A DNA stretch of 51,997 bases from the IMG/VR virus record IMGVR_UViG_3300042887_002920, positions 1 to 51,997 of that record; one strand, written 5' to 3'. The translations under genes were made by a program, and so were the position numbers. Under the pieces are notes generated by a model. The model saw only the letters and a list, made by a program, of their open reading frames with translations. It did not search any database and was not told where the DNA came from. Shown piece by piece: positions 3,536 through 37,722 of this stretch (position 1 is its first letter; every line of letters begins with the position of its first letter). The stretch comes from a virus.

Positions 3536-3568
3536 CAAATATAAGGACTATTTTCGTAAGATCAAAGC
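3536..3568 (-). promoter_or_regulatory. Bacteroidota-type promoter
   Basis: GCTTTG, a 19-bp spacer and TATATTTG (3543-3536) on the minus strand: a perfect TTTG-N19-TAnnTTTG match. The sequence around the upstream box is shared almost base for base with copies at 12313, 13540, 13851 and 14039. Confidence 0.85.
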
Positions 3569-7347: not shown

Positions 7348-7389
7348 TAAAAAGTGGGGCACCGAAAACAACCACGAAAACGGTGCCCC
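7348..7389 (-). terminator. intrinsic terminator of the MoxR-tRNA unit
   Basis: On the minus strand GGGGCACCG (7389-7381) pairs perfectly with CGGTGCCCC (7364-7356) around a 16-nt A/C-rich loop, followed by ACTTTTTATTT. This is a clear nine-base GC-rich stem plus T-run ending the leftward transcript after the small gene 7431..7592. Confidence 0.8.
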
Positions 7390-7430
7390 GAGGATAACCC
7401 CAAGCGGGCGGGGATATAGGGAGTAAGTAT

Positions 7431-7592
7431 TTATCCTATCTGTGTTCGTCTGTCATCAGACAGACCACGCATTCTTTTGAGTTCTTCTTCCATTGCAACC
7501 AATCCTTTTGCAACCCAAGTATCATTTGGATTCTCTTTGAGGACGTGTTTTGCAACTTCAATCATCTGTTCTAACTTCTGTTCGTTGTTCAT
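7431..7592 (-). CDS. small helical hypothetical protein
   Basis: The start at 7592 (MNNEQKLEQMIEVAKHVLKE) has AAAGGA nine bases upstream. The upstream extension of the frame would read through tRNA-Ile and is rejected. The 53 residues form two helices with a TWVAKGL turn and a basic end (KRMRGLSDDRRTQIG). The sequence resembles a helical-hairpin repeat but I cannot name a family. It is the last gene before the terminator at 7356-7389. Confidence 0.65.
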   Translation of the reverse strand: MNNEQKLEQMIEVAKHVLKENPNDTWVAKGLVAMEEELKRMRGLSDDRRTQIG

Positions 7593-7610
7593 TTCATATT
7601 CCTTTGTTAG

Positions 7611-7684
7611 TGGGCCCTGCCGGACTTGAACCGGCAACCTAACGATTATGAGTCGTTTGCTCTAACCGATTGAGCTAAAGGCCC
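7611..7684 (-). tRNA. tRNA-Ile2 (anticodon CAT)
   Basis: A 74-nt cloverleaf is read on the minus strand. The acceptor is GGGCCTT with AGGGCCC, the D arm is GCTC...GAGC, the anticodon arm is AACGA-CTCATAA-TCGTT, and the T arm is GCCGG-TTCAAGT-CCGGC, with discriminator A and no encoded CCA. The anticodon CAT allows Met or Ile2. The body (GACTCATAATCG stem-loop, TTCAAGTCC T loop, acceptor) is much closer to bacterial tRNA-Ile2 with lysidine-modified C34 than to elongator Met. It would decode AUA, a codon used heavily in the late genes of this AT-rich phage. Confidence 0.85.
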
Positions 7685-7690
7685 TGTTTG

Positions 7691-7762
7691 TGATCCCAAG
7701 GGGGCTCGAACCCCTATTATCGCCGTGAAAGGGCGGTGTCCTAACCATTAAACGATGGGACC
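7691..7762 (-). tRNA. tRNA-Glu (anticodon TTC)
   Basis: A 72-nt cloverleaf is read on the minus strand. The acceptor is GGTCCCA with TGGGATC (one G-T pair), the D arm GTTT...GGAC, the anticodon arm CCGCC-CTTTCAC-GGCGA, and the T arm GGGG-TTCGAGC-CCCC, with discriminator A. The anticodon TTC reads GAA and GAG. It lies four bases after the stop of gene 7767..8057 and six before tRNA-Ile2, so both are cut from the same long leftward transcript. Confidence 0.92.
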
Positions 7763-7766
7763 ATTT

Positions 7767-8057
7767 TTATTGTTCATTATCTTGTTGTTCTTGTGATTCA
7801 AGGTATTTACCAAACGACCATTGTAATAATCTTGTGTAATATCCAATGAATATGATTATTGGTATTGCAAGTCCAACCATAGTAAGCCAAAGTGGCGATG
7901 ATAAAAGGAAATTCATGTAAAAAAAGAAAAACCAAATACCAAGAATAGCAATAACAAATATGGCAAGAAACAATAATGAGATATAAACAAAACCTTTGAG
8001 ACCAGTCCAAAAGACTGACAAACATCCCATATTCAATTTTTCGGGTTGATTACTCAT
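7767..8057 (-). CDS. two-span membrane protein
   Basis: The protein has 96 residues with two hydrophobic stretches at about residues 22-48 (FVYISLLFLAIFVIAILGIW...) and 55-75 (PLWLTMVGLAIPIIIFIGYY). Both ends are polar and the C-terminus is Gln/Glu-rich (ESQEQQDNEQ). Its start overlaps the end of the thioredoxin-like gene by 8 bp, so the two are probably co-translated. It may be a membrane partner of that redox protein or a holin-like protein. Neither is shown by the sequence. Confidence 0.7.
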   Translation of the reverse strand: MSNQPEKLNMGCLSVFWTGLKGFVYISLLFLAIFVIAILGIWFFFFYMNFLLSSPLWLTMVGLAIPIIIFIGYYTRLLQWSFGKYLESQEQQDNEQ

Positions 8058-8571
8058 TAACTACACCATTCATTTCATAATTACGGATGATTTCATATAT
8101 TCTATGTTCATCACCAACTGTATAAGAATTTTGTTGCCATATCACTTCGCCTTTGTCATTGATAAGGAAAGAATGTGGAACGGTATTTACATTCATCATT
8201 CTTCTCAAATCAGCATTTTGGTCAAGATATACTTCAAAATTCCAATTCTTTCCATTTACAAACGGTTTTACTTTTGGAGAAGTTCGTATATCATCAACAG
8301 ATACCGCAACTATCTTGACATCAAATTCATCACGCCACACATCATACACATCATTCAGTTCGTTTAGTTCTTGAATACATGGTTTACACCAAGTAGCCCA
8401 AAATGTTAGATAGATTAAATTCTTACCGTTGTTTATGTTTGTTGAATTTACAACATTACCATTTATATCTTTTATTACTGCACTTGGTAATGGTGATTGA
8501 ATCATCGTTGAATCTTTACCAAATATACTAAAATTACACAACATTGCCAAAAGAAAAATAATTTTTTTCAT
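8050..8571 (-). CDS. TlpA/ResA-like secreted thioredoxin
   Basis: The protein has 173 residues with an N-terminal signal peptide (MKKIIFLLAMLCNFSIFG). It then has a thioredoxin fold with FWATWCKPC (Cys62, Cys65) and the cis-Pro loop NTVPHSFLIN near residue 134. WCxPC with this spacing is the TlpA/ResA family, which reduces disulfides outside the cytoplasm, in Bacteroidota typically in the periplasm. In a phage it is an auxiliary gene. It might adjust disulfides of a virion or envelope protein. The start is supported by GAGGAAATT and a four-base overlap with the upstream gene. Confidence 0.85.
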   Translation of the reverse strand: MKKIIFLLAMLCNFSIFGKDSTMIQSPLPSAVIKDINGNVVNSTNINNGKNLIYLTFWATWCKPCIQELNELNDVYDVWRDEFDVKIVAVSVDDIRTSPKVKPFVNGKNWNFEVYLDQNADLRRMMNVNTVPHSFLINDKGEVIWQQNSYTVGDEHRIYEIIRNYEMNGVVNE

Positions 8572-9047
8572 AATTTCCTCATAACATAATTTGTTGCAGG
8601 TTGTGCATACATTTCACTTAAATAGTATGCCTCAATTTCGTATGGGTTTTTATAGTAGCCATATTGTTTATTCCATCGTTCATACCAACCTCCCTTTCTG
8701 GGTTGCAGGTAGTGTATGTATTCATGTATGATAGTCTTGATAAACAATTTAGCAGTTCTGTGTCCACGAACCTTCAATGAAATACTATTCAGTTCTGGCT
8801 CGTATCTACCTATTGTCTGTGTATCATCTTCATCGTGGTCAATAGTATTCCATTCCCAAGAGATATACGGATGTTCTCTTGTTTCATTCATTCCAAAAGT
8901 ATCTATACACCAATCAATAGTGTGGTCAATAATTTGGTCAATAGTATCATCGGAAACATTCTTTTTTGAGAGATACATTGCCTCCACCGGCGGTTCTTTC
9001 ACCGGAGGAGACATTGCAAATCTTTTGAGTGTTTTCGTCTTAACCAT
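8568..9047 (-). CDS. HExxH zinc metallopeptidase-like protein
   Basis: The protein has 159 residues, taking ATG at 9047 (GAGAAAG upstream). An ATG at 9080 would overlap the previous gene more deeply and lacks a ribosome site. The motif IIHEYIHYLQ (His108, Glu109, His112) is the zinc-binding and catalytic signature. NPYEIEAYYLSE about 25 residues later offers the third ligand, as in SprT-like and other small gluzincin-type proteins. The active-site set looks complete. The substrate is unknown. It overlaps both neighbours in a unit with the MoxR ATPase and a second metallopeptidase-like protein. Confidence 0.75.
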   Translation of the reverse strand: MVKTKTLKRFAMSPPVKEPPVEAMYLSKKNVSDDTIDQIIDHTIDWCIDTFGMNETREHPYISWEWNTIDHDEDDTQTIGRYEPELNSISLKVRGHRTAKLFIKTIIHEYIHYLQPRKGGWYERWNKQYGYYKNPYEIEAYYLSEMYAQPATNYVMRKL

Positions 9048-11250
9048 GTGTCTTTCTCGAAGCGGATAGTAGTTCTGCATTCATGGATTGAACAACCTTG
9101 TTCAATTCCTCAGCATTAGCAAGGTGGTGACAATTTGTTTTGTAGCATTTCAATACATCTTCAAAGTCATACTTACGACCAATGAAATAAGTAAGAACAT
9201 TGATACCATGACTACGCATTCTATCTACTTGTCTGCGGGAATGGTCTTGAGCAGGTTGTCCTGCATATCTGAATAAATTGTATTTACTAATCTCTTTTGA
9301 CATATATGGTTGTCCATCACATAGATTGATAAAGAATGCATCGGTATTGGTGGATTCTTTGTATATGTCATTCATAATGGCCTCGAATGTCAAACCTTCT
9401 GGTGTTGTGTTTGTTGAATATAGACGAGGAAATATACGGCGAATATCCGCAATACCGTCTTGTTTAGAATCAAACAGGTAAACGATGTATGGTGTTTCAT
9501 TCATATCACTTTTATTTTTGTTGTTACTATAACCGTAATAATTCTGGTTGATAGTGGAACGGGCAGTAACTACTACACGAAGATTACGAATGAGTTTGGA
9601 TGCAGTTGCAAACATAGCAGCAAGTTTTACGGATTCATTAAACTTGTCACCCTGCATTGAACCGGAAGCATCAATGGAAAGATGAATGTATGAATCTTTA
9701 TATTTGTTTATACTAATCTTGTTGAAGATTTCGTAATTATCAAAACCAATTTCATGTAGCAATCTCTTGTCAATCTTACCTGAACGCAATCTGGTAGACT
9801 TATCTACTCGTTCTTCGTTACGAATTTGCAATCTTTTTGCAAGCAATTTACCTAAACTAATTGCCTTCTCAATCTCTTTAGCGTTTTGTTGTGTTTTCCA
9901 TGTGGAATAATGTGCATACACACCAAACGGAGCAGATACATCTGACTGCATAAACTTCTCGGTCAATCGTTTGATAGTATAAACTTTGATACCGTTGGTA
10001 TGAACACGACCATGATCATCTTCAAAACCTTTAGCAACATTATTTTGGTTCATATCTACGGAAGCAAACGCATCTACTTTTGAAACATCTTGTTTAGACA
10101 ATTTTGATTTGGTTAATTGACCATTGATAAAGTCTTTTTGTTTCTCTACCAATTTGCGTAATTGTTCAATTTGTTTATCAGAAAGTGGTTTGACATTCTG
10201 GTCTGCATCCGGAGTAGGTGGTGTCCATTGTGAATTAGTCCCAATGTTTCCGTCTGATTGACTATCGCCGAATCCATCATCGCCACCAAAGTCATCAGAA
10301 TTACCGTCACCTTCACCTTCACCACCTTTTTCTTTCTGACTATCATTTGCTTGATATTCTGTAATTTGTCCGATAATGGTGGAATAAACTTTGTAAGCAA
10401 GTTCGATACGGTCTTGTTGTTCGGATAACCTACGGATATTACGCATATCAATAAGATTCCATATTGTTTCCAATTCTGGAAGTGCCTTCAAGTTTCTTGC
10501 AGGTGAACGGAAATTACAAAGATGAAACATATAATTGTCCATAGTAGGTTGGCACATATCTGGTTGCCAAAACCCACGAGAAATTTTATCGTCACCAAAG
10601 TATTTGTGGTAAAGAGATTTGTAGTAAGCACGATAACCTGGAGCATTGGAATATGTCATTGCATCAATATACAGGTCCTCAACGATATTTAGAATTGTTT
10701 TGAAATTCTGTTTATATCCTTCCCAACCGAATGTTCTGCCCAAAATAGTTTGTTTCGTTTCACCATCATTTTCACGCAGTTTAGACGCAGTTTCATCAGG
10801 TAGAATTTTATCTACATTTGGATATTGAAATTCGGTTATAGATTTCGTAAAGTCTGTGTATAGAATATGTGAGCTCTCATGTAGGGCAAGGCCAACATTG
10901 GCATCAAAATCTTCTTCTTTCATCGTTGCAGATAGATTGATAGTTTTACCATCGGTAGAATTATTACCTGCACTATTGTATTGAACCTTGATAGTAGGGT
11001 CTGCAGTCAAAATGTGAACAAAGTTTGTAATAGCTCGCTGGTATTGAGCAAGAGCATGATAATCATATTTTGAACCTTGTTCTTCTGGTTCTGCAAACAT
11101 AGATGTTTTTTTGTCAAAGATTGAACCTTTGAGCCAGTAATTGGAATGTGCCTCATATTCATCGGCATAGTTATACTTGTCCCAAAAATTCGAGACGAAT
11201 TTCTTGGATGAATTGAGAATGTTAGATACGGATGTTTTTCTCTTACTCAT
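9040..11250 (-). CDS. HESSH metallopeptidase-like plus VWA domain protein
   Basis: The protein has 736 residues; the start at 11250 has AAGGGAT upstream. The N-terminal part has LALHESSHILYTDF (124-128 HESSH) and NIVEDLYID near 188-196, a layout of zinc peptidases with a downstream acidic ligand. A low-complexity acidic Gly/Asp/Ser linker covers about 308-340. A C-terminal von Willebrand A domain has a complete metal site: DASGS (Asp527, Ser529, Ser531), a TTPEG Thr near 616 and CDG (Asp645). Metallopeptidase-like plus VWA proteins encoded next to MoxR ATPases are known in bacteria (COG3864/DUF2201-type), where the pair is thought to act as a chaperone or remodelling machine. Its role in a phage is not known to me. 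Confidence 0.8.
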   Translation of the reverse strand: MSKRKTSVSNILNSSKKFVSNFWDKYNYADEYEAHSNYWLKGSIFDKKTSMFAEPEEQGSKYDYHALAQYQRAITNFVHILTADPTIKVQYNSAGNNSTDGKTINLSATMKEEDFDANVGLALHESSHILYTDFTKSITEFQYPNVDKILPDETASKLRENDGETKQTILGRTFGWEGYKQNFKTILNIVEDLYIDAMTYSNAPGYRAYYKSLYHKYFGDDKISRGFWQPDMCQPTMDNYMFHLCNFRSPARNLKALPELETIWNLIDMRNIRRLSEQQDRIELAYKVYSTIIGQITEYQANDSQKEKGGEGEGDGNSDDFGGDDGFGDSQSDGNIGTNSQWTPPTPDADQNVKPLSDKQIEQLRKLVEKQKDFINGQLTKSKLSKQDVSKVDAFASVDMNQNNVAKGFEDDHGRVHTNGIKVYTIKRLTEKFMQSDVSAPFGVYAHYSTWKTQQNAKEIEKAISLGKLLAKRLQIRNEERVDKSTRLRSGKIDKRLLHEIGFDNYEIFNKISINKYKDSYIHLSIDASGSMQGDKFNESVKLAAMFATASKLIRNLRVVVTARSTINQNYYGYSNNKNKSDMNETPYIVYLFDSKQDGIADIRRIFPRLYSTNTTPEGLTFEAIMNDIYKESTNTDAFFINLCDGQPYMSKEISKYNLFRYAGQPAQDHSRRQVDRMRSHGINVLTYFIGRKYDFEDVLKCYKTNCHHLANAEELNKVVQSMNAELLSASRKTHG

Positions 11251-11283
11251 AAAATATCCCTTTGTGGTTGTTGGTTGTTTGAT

Positions 11284-11291
11284 ATAAATAT
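11284..11291 (-). promoter_or_regulatory. candidate phage late-promoter box
   Basis: Read on the minus strand, TATATTTAT lies 34 nt before the start of 9040..11250. This is the same box and spacing as in front of several plus-strand genes, which supports its orientation. Confidence 0.3.
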
Positions 11292-11293
11292 AG

Positions 11294-11320
11294 TTTGCAG
11301 GGCGGGTTACGCCCCGCAAA
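11294..11320 (-). other. GC-rich intercistronic hairpin
   Basis: TTTGCGGGGCG pairs with CGCCCTGCAAA (one G-U in RNA) around a short loop, right between the MoxR and VWA genes. No T-run follows, so it is more likely an attenuator, processing site or mRNA stabiliser than a terminator. Confidence 0.45.
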
Positions 11321-11338
11321 CATTGTCAGTCATTGAAA

Positions 11339-12256
11339 TTACTTGTTGGTATCGGCTTCGTCAAACATATTGTCATTCTCAAGATCACCGGTTCCAACAT
11401 ACTTTTGTGCAATAATTTGAACGAAGGTTCTCTCACTATCAAGACCACCTTCACCATCAAAGTATGGGTAAATACACAGGTCAAGTGCCTCATTGATTGA
11501 GAAGCCGTCACAAATGTGTCTGGCGGCACGAATCATTGAACGGGTAGACATTCTTGTTTGAATTTTACCGTTATTAGTGGCCAATTCAGTATTGATTTGG
11601 TCATAGATACTGGTAAGAACTTCAACCGTTTTATCGTCAATTTTCGGACAAGCATGGCGAATGAGAGATTGTTGTTGTATCTTTGATAGAATATCCATTT
11701 CCAAGATAGCAAAACGGTCTGCAAGAGCAAAGTCTACCTTACGGGTGGATGTGTATTGAATGCCCTCGTTGGATGTAGCAAGGAACGAAACACCATCGGC
11801 AACCTTGACTACTTCTGTATCAGGAGATTCGTCAATACGCAAATATCTTTGAGATTCATCAAGAACAGTCATCAAGATATTCCATGCCTCTGGATGAGCA
11901 CGAGACAATTCATCTAGCAGAATTACAGCACCTTCTGTTTGGATTGCCTTGACAAATGTGGATTGGGCAAAGTAAGTGCCGGTCTCTTTGTTGAAATGGG
12001 TATTACCGATAAGTGTTGAACGAGGATCCTGTGTAGCACCAAGATTAAAGTAAAAGAATGGACGATCCATAACTCTAGCAACAGTAGTCACGGCAAGTGT
12101 TTTACCGGTTCCGGCGTCACCACGAAGCATGATATTTTCACCACGAAGAACGGCACGGACAATGAATTTCCATTTACTATCGGAAATGATTAAGCTCTCT
12201 GGTTTGTATTGAGGAGCAGTTTCGAGAAGCGTTGCGATGTTTTTTGCGTTTGTCAT
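11339..12256 (-). CDS. MoxR-family AAA+ ATPase
   Basis: The protein has 305 residues. It carries Walker A GDAGTGKT (46-53), Walker B VILLDE (111-116), sensor 1 ATSNEG (160-165), the ALADRF arginine-finger region (~177-182) and a C-terminal lid. The pattern and length fit MoxR/CbbQ-type AAA+ proteins, which use ATP hydrolysis to remodel a target recruited by a VWA-domain partner. That partner is encoded immediately downstream. The start at 12256 has TAGGAAA upstream. The leader carries two AACAACCA elements behind the promoter at 12313-12345. Confidence 0.9.
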   Translation of the reverse strand: MTNAKNIATLLETAPQYKPESLIISDSKWKFIVRAVLRGENIMLRGDAGTGKTLAVTTVARVMDRPFFYFNLGATQDPRSTLIGNTHFNKETGTYFAQSTFVKAIQTEGAVILLDELSRAHPEAWNILMTVLDESQRYLRIDESPDTEVVKVADGVSFLATSNEGIQYTSTRKVDFALADRFAILEMDILSKIQQQSLIRHACPKIDDKTVEVLTSIYDQINTELATNNGKIQTRMSTRSMIRAARHICDGFSINEALDLCIYPYFDGEGGLDSERTFVQIIAQKYVGTGDLENDNMFDEADTNK

Positions 12257-12312
12257 AAGACAGTTTCCTAAATGGTTGTTAATATGGTTGTTATTTTATC
12301 AATTTTGATATA

Positions 12313-12345
12313 CAAATATAAGTAATTTTACGGTAAGATCAAAGC
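12313..12345 (-). promoter_or_regulatory. Bacteroidota-type promoter for the MoxR-VWA-tRNA unit
   Basis: GCTTTG, a 19-bp spacer and TATATTTG (12320-12313): a perfect consensus. It overlaps the last codons of 12328..12606, whose C-terminal NNALILP is encoded by the promoter's upstream box. Confidence 0.85.
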
Positions 12346-12606
12346 ATTATTTTTTATTTTTTGTAATTTCTTATCTACCAAAGTCTTGACTGCGTTTTCA
12401 TGTATCAAGTATTTCACCGTTTTGCTGTTCTCCTTACGAACAGGACGAACAAGAGACTGATCAACTACTGGTTTCTCAAATAGTTTGTAAGATTGGTATT
12501 TTCTGGTTCTACCGTTTACCAATTTACGAACATACTGAAATGAGCACCCAAGAATCTTTGCAACTTCCGGGACAGTATAAAACTTTCCTTCTGGTGTGTC
12601 AATCAT
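12328..12606 (-). CDS. HTH DNA-binding protein
   Basis: The protein has 92 residues. FYTVPEVAKILGCSFQYVRK (about 9-28) is a helix-turn-helix of the MerR/excisionase 'helix_turn_helix_17' type, followed by the wing-like VNGRTRKYQSYKLFEKPVVD. The C-terminal part is basic. It probably binds DNA as a regulator and could act on the repeated early promoters, but no target is shown. Its ATG overlaps the previous stop by four bases and has AGGAG upstream. The 3' end runs into the next promoter. Confidence 0.75.
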   Translation of the reverse strand: MIDTPEGKFYTVPEVAKILGCSFQYVRKLVNGRTRKYQSYKLFEKPVVDQSLVRPVRKENSKTVKYLIHENAVKTLVDKKLQKIKNNALILP

Positions 12607-13127
12607 TTCTTTCTCCTAGTTGTCTTTGTTGGTTTGATAGTTTTTGTCTTGGTTGCCTTGGTTGTCTTTGCCTTGGCAGGTTTCTTCTCGGCTTTCTTGG
12701 CCGGTTTTGTTTTACGCATTTTTTTTACAATTTCGGTTGAAATTTTATCGTCAAGTGTTTCTTTCTTTTTACGCGGTTTGTTCACAACAACCTTGATTTC
12801 AGTTGGTGGCAATGTTCCACGCAATGATGATTGTTCTTCGCCTTTATGAAACACACGACCATCTTCGTGCACAAATTCCTTAAAAAACTTCCAGCCACGA
12901 GGAAAGCCAGTAGCAACATTTTTCTCATTCAGTTGTGGACCTGGAATCTTTGAAGCAACACATTTCCAACAAACAGCAGAGACAATGTTTTCCATTACAC
13001 GAATTTTTTCATTACAGTTACGGCCGGAATACCATTTACTTGTAGTATCGCCACCTTCACAAGTTACTGTTTTCATCTTGATAGCTTCGTGTCTTTTGGC
13101 TCGTTTTAATTCTATTTTCTTTTTCAT
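12603..13127 (-). CDS. zinc-ribbon-like protein with Lys-rich tail
   Basis: The protein has 174 residues; the start at 13127 (MKKKIELKRAKRHEA) has TTGGAAA upstream. Cysteines at TCEGG, GRNCNE and VCWKCVA suggest a metal-binding ribbon in the first 60 residues. A GFPRGWKFFKEFVHEDGRVFHKGEEQ segment follows, typical of phage and bacterial proteins in which a residue replaces ribosomal-like zinc loops. The last ~50 residues are Lys/Thr/Ala/Pro repeats (KPAKAKTTKATKTKTIKPTK), resembling histone H1 tails. A nucleic-acid-binding role is likely. It is translationally coupled to the HTH gene. Confidence 0.7.
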   Translation of the reverse strand: MKKKIELKRAKRHEAIKMKTVTCEGGDTTSKWYSGRNCNEKIRVMENIVSAVCWKCVASKIPGPQLNEKNVATGFPRGWKFFKEFVHEDGRVFHKGEEQSSLRGTLPPTEIKVVVNKPRKKKETLDDKISTEIVKKMRKTKPAKKAEKKPAKAKTTKATKTKTIKPTKTTRRKK

Positions 13128-13177: not shown

Positions 13178-13498
13178 TTATTCAATAATCATACCACCAT
13201 TTTCGGGTGACCATTTACCTATGTATGTCCACTGGTGAGAATTTACCCATGATTGACCATTGAGATACCATTGCCAGTTCTTCTGATTGATACGGACACC
13301 GGGAACACCATTAAGTCTCTCTCTGGTTGTCTTTGTTTCCCACCCGGCAGAACGGATGAAAACATTTCCACTGGTATCAATTTGAGCGATAGGGTTATTG
13401 TGAAGATATAGGGTATCGCCGTCTGTATGGGTATTGTCTCTACGAAATTTCTTACGCATAAGCCAATTTGAAACGGCTAATCTGGTTACTTGTCTCAT
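13178..13498 (-). CDS. conserved phage-type protein with WxTxTTRxRL motif
   Basis: The protein has 106 residues. GNVFIRSAGWETKTTRERLN near the centre matches a short pattern (W-x-T-x-TT-[KR]-x-RLN) found in uncharacterised proteins of many phages (DUF8033-like, my assignment). It is followed by QWYLNG. A basic N-terminus (MRQVTRLAVSNWLMRKKFRR) precedes beta-like segments. The first gene after the promoter at 13540, with GAGGAAACAACC directly before the ATG. Function unknown. Confidence 0.7.
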   Translation of the reverse strand: MRQVTRLAVSNWLMRKKFRRDNTHTDGDTLYLHNNPIAQIDTSGNVFIRSAGWETKTTRERLNGVPGVRINQKNWQWYLNGQSWVNSHQWTYIGKWSPENGGMIIE

Positions 13499-13539: not shown

Positions 13540-13572
13540 CAAATATAAGGCATTTTTTTGTAAGATCAAAGC
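13540..13572 (-). promoter_or_regulatory. Bacteroidota-type promoter
   Basis: GCTTTG, a 19-bp spacer and TATATTTG (13547-13540) on the minus strand, followed by an AACAACCA element at 13525-13518. It drives the unit 13178..13498, 12603..13127, 12328..12606. Confidence 0.85.
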
Positions 13573-13850: not shown

Positions 13851-13883
13851 CAAATATACGGACTATTTTTGTAAGATCAAAGC
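13851..13883 (-). promoter_or_regulatory. Bacteroidota-type promoter (tandem copy 1)
   Basis: GCTTTG, a 19-bp spacer and TATATTTG (13858-13851). It faces gene 13583..13813 and has an AACAACCA element in the leader. Confidence 0.85.
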
Positions 13884-13943: not shown

Positions 13944-13976
13944 CAAATATAACACATTTTTTGTTAAGATCAAAGC
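13944..13976 (-). promoter_or_regulatory. Bacteroidota-type promoter (tandem copy 2)
   Basis: GCTTTG, a 19-bp spacer and TATATTTG? Here the box reads TTATATTTG (13951-13944) after AAGTGCTTTG. It is followed only by a micro-ORF before the next promoter. Confidence 0.8.
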
Positions 13977-14038: not shown

Positions 14039-14071
14039 CAAATATAAGACATTTTTTTGTAAGATCAAAGC
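14039..14071 (-). promoter_or_regulatory. Bacteroidota-type promoter (tandem copy 3)
   Basis: GCTTTG, a 19-bp spacer and TATATTTG (14046-14039), the outermost of three tandem copies at 93-95 bp spacing. Confidence 0.85.
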
Positions 14072-17281: not shown

Positions 17282-17968
17282 ATGCTTTCAAGTGATTTAA
17301 GAGATGCAGTAAGATTAGTTTCGGTTACAAACCCATCAGAATTAGTTAGATTTACCAATAAGGGTAAGACTAAAAAAGTTTCACCCGAAGAGTTAATAGT
17401 TTACATCGCAAGAGTAAGTAATCCAAGTAATCAGATGAACATGGAGACTGCTCCAAAATTGATAAACTATTTAATTAAACACAAACATTGGTCTCCATTT
17501 GAATTCGTAGATATGACAGTTGATATTGTTACGCGTAGAAGTATTGCGGCTCAAATTCTTCGTCATAAATCTTTTTCTTTCCAAGAATTTTCACAACGAT
17601 ATTCAACTGCAACGGAAATACAAAAAATAGAATTGAGAAGACAAGGGAAAACAAATAGACAAAGTTCAGAAGAATTAGTTCCAGATTTCACATTAGATCG
17701 TGATATTGAACAACATATTGCAAATTCAAAAATGTTATACGATAAATTGATTAAACAAGGAATATCAAGAGAAACAGCTCGTGATGTTCTTCCATTATCA
17801 ACAGAAACAACTATGTATATGAAAGGTTCTGTTCGTAGTTGGATTCATTATTTGGATCTTCGTTGTTCGCCTGATACACAAAAGGAACATCGTTTGATTG
17901 CAGATGGTATAAAATCAATTTTTGTAAATAATTTTCCGAACATTTCGGAAGCATTAAATTGGAAATAA
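17282..17968 (+). CDS. thyX: flavin-dependent thymidylate synthase ThyX
   Basis: The protein has 228 residues. RHKSFSFQEFSQRY (94-107) fits the ThyX signature RHRxxSxQExSxRY. ARDVLPLST and SVRSWIHYLDLR near the C-terminus are the conserved FAD- and dUMP-binding segments. The enzyme makes dTMP from dUMP with methylene-tetrahydrofolate, using FAD and NADPH, and supplies thymidylate for phage replication. The length is normal for the family. The second Arg of the motif is Lys here, a tolerated change in some phage ThyX proteins. The ribosome site is weak. Confidence 0.93.
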   Translation: MLSSDLRDAVRLVSVTNPSELVRFTNKGKTKKVSPEELIVYIARVSNPSNQMNMETAPKLINYLIKHKHWSPFEFVDMTVDIVTRRSIAAQILRHKSFSFQEFSQRYSTATEIQKIELRRQGKTNRQSSEELVPDFTLDRDIEQHIANSKMLYDKLIKQGISRETARDVLPLSTETTMYMKGSVRSWIHYLDLRCSPDTQKEHRLIADGIKSIFVNNFPNISEALNWK

Positions 17969-22916: not shown

Positions 22917-23576
22917 ATGAACGATTTTTATGATGGTGAAGAAGTTGTTGAAAAAGAAACAACTAATAATAAATCAAAAGAAAATGAGAATGACATTCCA
23001 GTTAGATGGAAAGAAGCAACAACACAAATGGATTATGGAATTGATGTTGAGGCATCTTCTGTTTTGTTATTTGGTGAAATAATGGATGGTTCATTGTATG
23101 ATATTATTACTCGTATACGAGCAATTCTTCATATGAGAAAAGATGAAAATAAAAATGATCCAATCAATCTAATTATCAATTCTGATGGTGGTTCTGTTTA
23201 TGAGGCACTTGGTATCATTGACTATATGCAAAGTCTCGATGTGAAGGTAAATACAATTTGTAGAGGTAGGGCAATGTCTGCTGCTGCTTTAATTCTATGT
23301 GCTGGAACAGGTACTCGTTTGGCTTCCCAACACTCTACTATTATGTTCCATGAGATTAGTTCTGATATTTACGGAAAATCTTCTGATATGAAGGCAAATG
23401 TGCAACACATGGAAAAATTAGAAGAAATTCTTTTGGGAATACTTAAATCAAATTCAAACAAAGATATAGAATTTTGGAAAAATGTTACTATAAAAGATTA
23501 TTATATTACTCCGTCTGATGCATTGAATCTTGGTGTTATTGATGTAATAATTCCACCTAAACATAATAGAGGTTAA
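22917..23576 (+). CDS. ClpP-like serine protease
   Basis: The protein has 219 residues; CCAGGAGTTCTGTT precedes the ATG. The ClpP fold is seen in VLLFGEIMDG, PINLIINSDGGSVYEALGII, GRAMSAAALILCAG with Ser121, and STIMFHEISSD with His145. The third triad residue is not certain. The N-terminal ~40 residues are a charged extension. In phages ClpP-like enzymes serve in head maturation or protein turnover. Here it lies just before the sigma factor and tail genes, not among visible head genes. Confidence 0.85.
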   Translation: MNDFYDGEEVVEKETTNNKSKENENDIPVRWKEATTQMDYGIDVEASSVLLFGEIMDGSLYDIITRIRAILHMRKDENKNDPINLIINSDGGSVYEALGIIDYMQSLDVKVNTICRGRAMSAAALILCAGTGTRLASQHSTIMFHEISSDIYGKSSDMKANVQHMEKLEEILLGILKSNSNKDIEFWKNVTIKDYYITPSDALNLGVIDVIIPPKHNRG

Positions 23577-35815: not shown

Positions 35816-35832
35816 AAATATAGGTGATAAAA

Positions 35833-37722
35833 ATGGCTTTAATCCAAAAAGATATTCGTTATTCAAATAGAGATTTCAATTCATTAAAAAAATCTTTGAT
35901 AGATTTTTCCAAAAATTATTTTCCAGATACATACCAAGATTTCAATGAAACCTCACCGGGAATGTTATTTTTGGAAATGGCAGCTTATGTTGGGGATGTT
36001 TTGTCATTTTATACAGATGTTACACTACAAGAATCAATGATTCTGTTTGCTAATGAACGTCAAAATATACTTAACATTGCACATTCTCTCGGTTATGCAC
36101 CAAAAAATAGGGTTGCAGCAAATACCGTATTAGATGTTTTTCAAGTTGTTCCTGCAAAAAAAGTAGGTCTTGAAATAGTTCCAGATTATGATTATGCAAT
36201 GGCAATAGAACCTGGAATGCGTGTATCACCAACAACCGATGGAACAATTACATTCAGAACAATAGATTATATTGATTTTAAGTCTAGTAGTAGTTTTGAT
36301 TCAACAGAAGTAACTCCATATGAAATAGATAATACAACGGGAGAAGTTACATTTTGGCTTCTGAGAAAACAAGCGAAAGCTATTTCCGGAACAATTAGAT
36401 CTTCAACATTTAGTGCGGGTGATCCAAAACCATACGATAAATTTACAATAGAAGAAACGGATATAATAGAAATACTCTATGCAATAGATACAGAAGGAAA
36501 CAAATGGGAACACGTTCCTAATTTGGCACAAGATACTGTATTTGAACCGGTGTTAAACATACCAAGAAATGATTCACAATTAAGTAAATATAGATCAGAA
36601 ACACCATACTTACTTAAATTGAGAAGAGTTCCTAGACGATTTACTTCAAGACAGATGGCAAATGGAAATGTGGAAATACAGTTTGGTGCGGGAATCAGTG
36701 ATGTAGATGATGAATTGTTAATTCCAAATCCAGATTTAGTCGGTGGTGCTTTGCCTATGACAAATCCAAATTTATCGATAAACATAGATCCTTCAAACTT
36801 TTTGTATACAAAAACATATGGTCTTGCACCAAACAATACAACATTGACATTCTTCTATACAATCGGTGGTGGAACCGAAGACAATGTTCCAAGTGAAGTA
36901 TTAAATAATGTTTTGAATAGAATAGTAATTTTAGATTCAACTGGATTGGATCCAGTGTTATATGGTCAAATTGTATCCAGTTTGGCTGTAACAAACCCAA
37001 GACCTGCAACAGGTGGTAAATTTCAAGAAGATATACAAGAGATTAGACAAAATGCCGTTGCTTCTTTTGCTGCACAAAATCGTGCAGTTACAAAAGAAGA
37101 TTACATAATCCGTGCTTATAGTCTACCATCAAAGTATGGTTCTATTGCAAAGGCATATATTACGAAAGATACTCAATTAACGAAGGATTCTATATTCAAT
37201 AGTGATAGAGTTCAAAACGATTTAGCTCTAAACTTTTATGTTCTTGGTTATGACGTAAACGGTAAACTTACAACAGTAAACAATGCTACAAAGGAAAATC
37301 TAAAAAATTATTTGAATTGGTATAGAATACTAACAGATGCAATTAACATTAGAGATGCTTATATTATCAATGTAGGCGTAAATTTTGACATAATAACTTT
37401 ACCTGATCAAAATTCAAACCAAGTTGTTCTTCGTTGTATTGAAAGATTGAAACAATACTTTGATGTAAACAAATGGCAAATAAATCAACCGATTGCAATA
37501 AGCAACATATACACAGAATTAGATAGGGTTCCTGGTGTTCAAACTGTTGTAAATGTTAAAATTAGAAATTTATCTGATACGAACTTGGGTTACTCTCCTC
37601 ATGCCTATAACATAGAACAAGCAACAAAAGATGGTGTTTTGTTCCCGTCATTAGATCCATCTATTTTTGAAATAAAATATCCAAACAATGATATTGTTGG
37701 TAGAGCGAGGTCATTCGGATGA
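35833..37722 (+). CDS. baseplate wedge protein gp6 (baseplate J-like)
   Basis: The protein has 629 residues. ATG at 35833 is favoured over GTG at 35824 because AGGTGAT lies at a suitable distance. DFNSLKKSLIDFSKNYFPDT, then DFNETSPGMLFLEMAAYVGD, then VLSFYTDVTLQESMILFANE is the T4 gp6 signature. The later NAVASFAAQNRAVTKEDYI is the usual baseplate J motif. gp6 forms the wedge ring of the baseplate. The order gp25 then gp6 is kept as in T4-like phages. Confidence 0.93.
   Translation: MALIQKDIRYSNRDFNSLKKSLIDFSKNYFPDTYQDFNETSPGMLFLEMAAYVGDVLSFYTDVTLQESMILFANERQNILNIAHSLGYAPKNRVAANTVLDVFQVVPAKKVGLEIVPDYDYAMAIEPGMRVSPTTDGTITFRTIDYIDFKSSSSFDSTEVTPYEIDNTTGEVTFWLLRKQAKAISGTIRSSTFSAGDPKPYDKFTIEETDIIEILYAIDTEGNKWEHVPNLAQDTVFEPVLNIPRNDSQLSKYRSETPYLLKLRRVPRRFTSRQMANGNVEIQFGAGISDVDDELLIPNPDLVGGALPMTNPNLSINIDPSNFLYTKTYGLAPNNTTLTFFYTIGGGTEDNVPSEVLNNVLNRIVILDSTGLDPVLYGQIVSSLAVTNPRPATGGKFQEDIQEIRQNAVASFAAQNRAVTKEDYIIRAYSLPSKYGSIAKAYITKDTQLTKDSIFNSDRVQNDLALNFYVLGYDVNGKLTTVNNATKENLKNYLNWYRILTDAINIRDAYIINVGVNFDIITLPDQNSNQVVLRCIERLKQYFDVNKWQINQPIAISNIYTELDRVPGVQTVVNVKIRNLSDTNLGYSPHAYNIEQATKDGVLFPSLDPSIFEIKYPNNDIVGRARSFG

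Follow-up and report, generated by a model that had tools for sequence, protein, structure and literature searches.

Organisation of the locus

The DNA analysed here, called the window, is the record of a single uncultured virus (IMG/VR IMGVR_UViG_3300042887_002920, 51,997 bases) and is probably a fragment. Its minus strand carries a block of genes encoding, in this order, a MoxR-type ATPase, a VWA protein, a small HExxH protein, a TlpA/ResA-like protein and a 96-residue hydrophobic protein, followed by tRNA-Glu and tRNA-Met (Table 1). The first two genes form a divergent version of the CobS/CobT-like pair known from viruses and do not belong to a new four-gene system. In our judgement the chances are about even that this pair is an ATP-driven MoxR-VWA metalloprotease or remodeller, with a putative zinc-metalloprotease domain in the VWA partner, and not a cobalt chelatase. 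New here are the conservation of the zinc site, counted without bias, the divergent subfamily, a second zincin specific to the clade and a conserved intergenic hairpin.

The original prediction, made from this DNA alone, had proposed a complete MoxR/VWA pair with Walker A, Walker B, sensor 1 and a DxSxS metal ion-dependent adhesion site (MIDAS), and all of these motifs are present, in a pair that is conserved as a unit. The HESSH motif, the second HExxH motif (HEYIH), the TlpA-like protein and the tRNAs that it had listed were also found, all on the minus strand.

Table 1. Features of the MoxR/VWA block and their positions in the window
Feature	Position	Strand	Remarks
MoxR-type AAA+ ATPase (CobS-like), 305 residues	11339..12256	-	Pfam AAA_5 5.7e-19; PHROG 249 1.2e-28
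VWA protein with N-terminal HExxH (zincin-like) domain, viral CobT-like, 736 residues	9040..11250	-	ATG at 11250, stop at 9040
HESSH, putative zinc site (residues 123-127, Ser after Met = 1)	10867..10881	-	conserved 84/84 (set found with the motifs, see text)
NIVEDLYID (residues 187-195), putative third zinc ligand Glu190	10663..10689	-	about 60 residues after HESSH
MIDAS DASGS (Asp526, Ser528, Ser530)	9658..9672	-	invariant in 70 homologues
Small zincin-like HExxH protein (HEYIH...NPYEIEA), 159 residues	8568..9047	-	start overlaps VWA stop
TlpA/ResA-like thioredoxin-fold protein, hydrophobic N-terminus, WCKPC	8050..8571	-	AhpC-TSA 4.5e-17, over cut-off
96-residue protein with hydrophobic stretches (short membrane protein)	7767..8057	-	no family match
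tRNA-Glu (ttc)	7690..7762	-	
tRNA-Met (cat)	7610..7684	-	
Bacteroidota-type promoter TTTGATCTTAC-N12-TATATTTG	12313..12343	-	about 57 bases 5' of the MoxR start codon
Hairpin between MoxR and VWA genes, 12 base pairs	11293..11321	-	-21.9 kcal/mol, z -5.8
Intrinsic terminator, 9-base-pair stem, then ACTTTTT	7356..7389	-	-21.5 kcal/mol, z -3.5; closes the block

The MoxR-type ATPase and the VWA protein

The best PHROG match of the ATPase is PHROG 249, described as 'porphyrin biosynthesis', and the bpMoxR model is matched above its cut-off (32.9 bits against 27). Walker A (GDAGTGKT), Walker B (VILLDE), sensor 1 Asn163 and Arg181 were recognised. Across 22 homologues the Walker A and B motifs, sensor 1, the arginine finger and the arginine of the sensor-2 region are all invariant, and the family matches suggest that the helix-2 insert of MoxR proteins is present too.

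The Pfam VWA match of the second protein is weak (0.0012); its AlphaFold2 model (predicted local distance difference test, pLDDT, 78.6) displays a clear VWA fold. The best solved fold for this part is NorD in the NorQD complex (Z 20.2 over 270 residues, root-mean-square deviation 6.4), followed by the MIDAS domains of Rea1/MDN1 (Z 18-19), so that both of the closest solved relatives of the VWA domain are partners of MoxR-clade ATPases. The MIDAS is complete (DxSxS-T-D), since Thr615 and Asp644 are, like the DASGS residues, invariant among the 70 homologues. In a library of viral models, phage proteins labelled CobT or VWFA were matched over the greater part of the protein, among them those of Gordonia phages, halovirus HCTV-2 and Thermus phage P74-26; the global template modelling scores were low (0.2-0.35), as one would expect where flexible linkers join several domains. 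The DUF2201_N (PF13203) and CobT (PF06213) profiles were also tried, with no match in the window.

The family to which the window belongs was found in at least 562 IMG/VR contigs, in 3 of 50,697 deposited phage records and, among 84,980 prokaryote genomes, at eight loci on short contigs of metagenome-assembled genomes (MAGs), while the Kyanoviridae branch is present in 463 phage records. When 80 contigs were collected by their MoxR gene, a VWA gene was in reach in 54; the two genes then always share a strand, their order varies, and in 30 they are within 300 bases of each other. As for the remaining 26, the contig ends within 2.5 kilobases of MoxR in 23, and a 24th has a cut VWA gene at its end. 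In Mel-JY01 the two genes are 13 kilobases apart. The MoxR/VWA pair is real and old, and its two genes need not be strictly adjacent. A tblastn search also gave MoxR genes of mycobacteriophages, which were rejected as members of such pairs: the next gene in LeBron (gp127) does not encode a VWA protein of this type.

The putative zinc site of the VWA protein

Besides the HESSH motif, N187, E190, D191 and I194 of the second motif are conserved in 84/84 homologues and D195 in 83, with Glu in the remaining one. These homologues had been found by patterns containing the HExxH and NxxED motifs, which makes the count circular, and it was therefore repeated with queries taken only from the VWA C-terminus. 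HExxH was then present in all 73 open reading frames (ORFs) with a complete 5' end, every miss lying at a contig end, and the second motif was exact in 70 of the 73, the other three being mutually identical and reading NYVEDRRVD. Such counts speak to retention of the putative site and not to activity.

The same arrangement is seen in Kyanoviridae. The 'peptidase' encoded beside or near cobS in S-PM2, P-SSM2 and HTVC008M has HEVGH together with NV(I/C)ED.RI, and a C-terminus-only search of this family, counted with a profile, gave HE(V/C)GH and NxxED in 73 of the 73 ORFs that reach the N-terminal domain. Although tblastn with the window family found no Kyanoviridae, these being too distant, a profile-profile comparison of the N-terminal domains joined the two families (96%, E 4e-9) and brought both motifs into line. 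Further carriers of the motif are Gordonia phage GMA3, Bacteroides phage BS162P1, Ochrobactrum phage OC and halovirus HCTV-2. In Ochrobactrum phage vB_OspM_OC a peptide deformylase gene (L442, 1232-1726) stands directly 5' of the CobT-like gene.

In the model the HExxH motif lies in the helix of residues 111-130, which two strands precede, and Glu190 in a second helix (175-201), an order like that of zincins. HESSH, together with NxxEDxxID as a candidate third ligand, is part of the VWA protein's own N-terminal domain and not a stray motif, and all full-length relatives keep it, including those from searches blind to it. Where the original prediction had two separate metallopeptidase-like motifs, both do exist and are unrelated by profile, but HESSH belongs to the VWA protein itself. 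Matches of either zincin among PDB sequences were at chance level (e.g. mitofusin, haemagglutinin) and were discarded.

The small HExxH protein and the TlpA-like protein

The small HExxH family has the motifs HEY.H..QP and GY..NPYE. The Pfam SprT-like model (PF10263) stays below its cut-off for this protein (0.0014, 18.9 bits against 25.6). Its AlphaFold2 model (pLDDT 82) has selecase and jannalysin as best folds (probability 0.90-0.98, E about 0.04). Homology between the two zincins of the block was looked for by profile comparison and rejected (0.2%).

All 12 strong homologues of the small zincin have a VWA gene in reach, whereas none of 68 loci with a weaker homologue has MoxR or VWA within up to 8 kilobases. 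The small zincin is a companion of the pair specific to this clade and comes from a broad phage family. The TlpA-like protein is matched by the ResA model at 9.9e-24, with every named NCBIfam subfamily below cut-off. It is present in contigs L001, L011 and L013 and absent in L010, L012, L014 and L015, and a search by peptide pattern, which was narrow and missed L013, returned two other viral contigs only. TlpA is optional cargo. The 96-residue gene is kept in L001, L010, L011, L013 and L015, and stands directly 3' of the small zincin gene in L010 and L015.

These observations bear on the possibility that, whatever the function of the pair, the unit consists of MoxR and VWA only, the small zincin and TlpA being accessory genes with no functional relation to it. 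TlpA comes and goes, the wider small-zincin family occurs alone, and in Mel-JY01 the MoxR, VWA and small zincin genes are kilobases apart. On the other hand, within this clade the small zincin follows VWA, in the window with overlapping genes, its strong homologues keep VWA in reach, and Mel-JY01 and L016 still hold it in the genome. We regard such independence as a possibility, somewhat less likely than not. The four genes, originally seen as one fixed system, do not hold together as such, given the four contigs without TlpA and the 68 loci without the pair. Occurrence of the genes independently of each other in relatives, which the original prediction had named as the observation that would speak against it, is found for TlpA and in part for the HExxH protein, and not for MoxR with VWA.

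Promoter, intergenic hairpin and terminator

Upstream of MoxR is a box, TTTGATCTTAC-N12-TATATTTG, of which the window has six near-identical copies on the minus strand. Besides the one at 12313 these lie at 3536-3566, 13540-13570, 13851-13881, 13944-13974 and 14039-14069, four of them clustered at 13.5-14.1 kilobases. A scan allowing up to three mismatches gave seven matches against 0.03 expected by shuffling. The ends of the box, TTTG and TANNTTTG, correspond to the Bacteroidota -33/-7 elements, and the repeated boxes are a probable Bacteroidota-type family of phage early promoters. Sigma70 promoters were at chance level only (28 found against 26.2 expected) and the Bacteroidota-type box was adopted instead. 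The early-type promoter and the terminator that had been foreseen are therefore supported in the form of this box and of the 9-base-pair stem with its T run, and not as a sigma70 promoter. The promoter type, together with a relative (L089) with 50% VWA identity in a Flavobacteriaceae MAG contig, suggests a Bacteroidota host.

Overlaps of a few bases join the VWA, HExxH, TlpA and 96-residue genes in succession and point to translational coupling; the gap between MoxR and VWA is 88 bases. This gap contains a strong hairpin and, after it, a conserved TATATTTATA and leader. The overlaps, the hairpin and the 96-residue protein had no place in the original prediction. Strong hairpins with partly different stem sequence stand at the same place in L009, L010, L012 and L013 (z -4.7 to -5.6), and in L014 the hairpin there is accompanied by a T run and a TATATTTG box. 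The element could be a partial terminator or an element of RNA processing or stability. If it acted as a partial terminator and so kept VWA below MoxR, this would fit the 6:1 stoichiometry of NorQD (PMC9976466). The block recurs in independent contigs, beyond chance. The single operon of the original prediction, from MoxR to the tRNAs, is likely in view of the overlaps, the promoter and the terminator, but with so strong a hairpin between MoxR and VWA it is not certain.

The setting of the genes also bears on whether the pair is a virion or tail maturation device, a role that has been put forward for p618 and p892, the MoxR/VWA proteins of Acidianus two-tailed virus. ORF892 of this virus did appear in the viral fold search, with a weak and partial match (E 2e-3), and an eLife 2020 paper lists an archaeal virus tail system among the MoxR-VWA cases. 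Nevertheless the pair lies on the strand opposite the virion genes, its promoter is shared with small early-type genes, and a ClpP-like protease for head maturation is encoded separately in the window (22917-23576, plus strand; PHROG 94, 1.5e-35). Moreover, the pair of S-PM2 sits between the replication genes gp46 and gp45. We consider a maturation device highly improbable, and both the promoter and the S-PM2 setting tell against the virion role suggested in the original prediction. Early-type expression and the place in S-PM2 favour a takeover or replication role over virion assembly.

Several other genes surround the block. Just 5' of the MoxR promoter are genes for a helix-turn-helix protein (12328-12606, minus strand) and a lysine-rich protein (12603-13127, minus strand), in an order kept in most close relatives. 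A small protein (13178-13498, minus strand) matches Kyanoviridae Gp96 (PF23790, 2e-9), a feature in common with T4-like cyanophages. On the plus strand are a thymidylate synthase (17282-17968; PHROG 85, 6e-70) and a baseplate wedge protein (35824-37722; PHROG 219, 1e-22), the latter suggesting a contractile-tailed phage. Three adjacent genes were seen in L001 (14673-17090, minus strand), two of them clear paralogues (281 and 299 residues) that both have 'HGT...LGLTT...GGYNFA'; no function was assigned.

Cobalamin supply and ribonucleotide reductase

A pair serving cobalamin supply should accompany a B12-dependent ribonucleotide reductase. Two long contigs of the clade (G003, G004) and Mel-JY01 encode an RTPR-like class II reductase (about 260 bits, below the cut-off of 340), and LR756508 encodes an NrdJ just over cut-off. 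A reductase was also found in 14 of 18 further long contigs of the family. These fall into two groups, and among those scanned for reductase class it was RTPR-like in 5/5 of one group and class I in 5/5 of the other, over cut-off and in one case class Ia. The reductase of S-PM2 is class Ia. A short RTPR-like class II reductase (about 620 residues) below the curated cut-off is common in these phages (G003, G004, L003/Mel-JY01, G009, G010, G014, G017). The pair thus occurs with B12-dependent and with B12-independent reductases and does not follow B12 demand, so that a B12 role, though it may exist, is not needed to explain it.

According to the published view (PMC8651126) the pair would be a viral cobaltochelatase that replaces CobS/CobT, hijacks the host CobN and raises cobalamin, for instance for a B12-dependent reductase. 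The PHROG 249 match of the ATPase agrees with this, as do the CobT_C VWA model, which matches 2/6 family members (best 3e-7), the adenosylcobalamin-type RTPR-like reductases of G003, G004 and Mel-JY01, and the NrdJ of LR756508. Nevertheless class I reductases accompany the pair in S-PM2 and throughout the second group as scanned, the CobT N-terminal model (PF06213) finds no match in the window protein and matches 2/24 N-terminal domains of the family with a best E of 0.07, and a chelatase leaves the invariant HExxH...E site unexplained. A cobaltochelatase is in our opinion unlikely.

The reductases could also be clients. In this case the pair would be a chaperone for metal or cofactor insertion, or for enzyme reactivation, like NorQD or CbbQO, with the HExxH...E site holding and delivering a metal instead of cutting peptide bonds, and with the reductase as candidate client. 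The closest VWA fold is that of NorD, which belongs to an iron-insertion chaperone, and a reductase is found in most of the long family records searched (the 14/18 above, also G003, G004, Mel-JY01 and LR756508) and in three Kyanoviridae. However, reductases are common in large phages generally. In addition, insertion does not need a zinc-protease signature, and none is mentioned for NorD in the part of the published text available to us. We regard an insertion chaperone as rather improbable.

Proposed function of the pair

The metalloprotease or remodeller reading draws on the invariance of HExxH and NxxED in both families, their alignment by profile, the zincin-like order of helices in the model, the NorD-like VWA fold and the close association of the MoxR and VWA genes. 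It also has several observations to contend with. The VWA protein of Thermus phage P74-26, of the same fold group, is without HExxH, so that the site can be lost. The fold-search matches of the full model are filled by the VWA part only, the N-terminal domain matched no Pfam peptidase family, and a profile search of PDB sequences with this domain found no zincin. Moreover, a conserved zincin site can hold metal without proteolysis, and the class II reductase in the two long contigs of the clade would also fit a B12 role.

For the mechanism of a MoxR-VWA metalloprotease or remodeller the NorQD complex provides a model (PMC13036017, PMC9976466): a hexameric ATPase holds one VWA protein with a finger in its pore, and ATP drives a twist of the VWA domain against the N-terminal domain. 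By analogy, the MoxR hexamer would bind the finger of a single VWA protein in its pore. The target, which may be a host or a phage protein, could be held at two points, by the MIDAS through an acidic residue of the target and by the N-terminal domain, and ATP turnover would twist one domain against the other. The HExxH...E domain might then cut an exposed segment of the target or, alternatively, the motor might open this domain. The genes are probably expressed early, from the repeated Bacteroidota-type promoter, and the intergenic hairpin may set a high ratio of ATPase to VWA protein. The second, unrelated zincin next door would be a partner specific to the clade.

It is possible, though less likely than not, that viral 'CobT' proteins generally, from cyanophages to haloarchaeal viruses, are MoxR-driven metalloproteases and not chelatase subunits. 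Their layout, an AAA+ ring, a VWA gripper and a zincin blade, would be new, and such a machine would remodel a shared target, of host or phage, early in infection, the second zincin having been recruited in the window clade. So far the role of this widespread viral pair has been guessed from the names CobS and CobT. The strict conservation of the putative protease site makes the function of the pair directly testable, as protease and chelatase can be told apart by a single Glu-to-Gln change. If the pair is a protease, it would represent a new AAA+ protease layout, and there would be reason to revise claims about vitamin B12 made from viral 'cobST' genes.

Comparison with known systems

The small HExxH protein resembles the minigluzincins selecase and jannalysin in having an HExxH helix and a later Glu helix, but the E-values are weak, there is no sequence match, and it forms a phage family of its own. 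The pair itself shares with the MoxR-VWA ternary conflict systems (bpMoxR, VMAP; PMC7159879) a bpMoxR-level ATPase and a VWA protein. However, the window is without a recognised third component (VMAP, beta-propeller, iSTAND) or effector domain, and its VWA protein has a zincin-like domain N-terminal to the VWA domain. Defence evasion, one of the roles first proposed, gained nothing from PADLOC, which gave generic ATPase matches and no strong one.

The bacterial CobS/CobT proteins have the same pairing of ATPase and VWA protein, and the CobT_C model matches some family members, whereas the CobT N-terminal model is unmatched in the window protein. NorQ and NorD, which insert iron into nitric oxide reductase, are likewise a MoxR ATPase and a VWA protein, with a match in VWA fold. 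The N-terminal domain of NorD differs in being a chaperone module, with no zincin signature mentioned in the accessible portion of its description.

The 'CobS' and 'peptidase' of Kyanoviridae (S-PM2, P-SSM2, HTVC008M) differ in the filling of the HExxH motif, HEVGH against HEGSH/HESSH in the window family, and no small zincin gene was noticed adjoining the pair in the annotated cyanophage regions. In other respects they are alike: a MoxR-type ATPase is encoded beside or near a VWA protein of similar length, with HExxH and NxxEDxRI in an N-terminal domain that is matched by profile as given above. Among cultured T4-like cyanophages cobS belongs to the core genes (PMC3037559). The viral CobS/CobT-like pair has already been described as widespread among the tailed viruses that infect bacteria and archaea (PMC8651126), so that the pair in the window is not the special phage version of a bacterial machine that had been supposed. 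It has an ATPase of the PHROG 249 kind, N-terminal homology and proximity on the same strand, as the other viral CobS/CobT-like pairs do.

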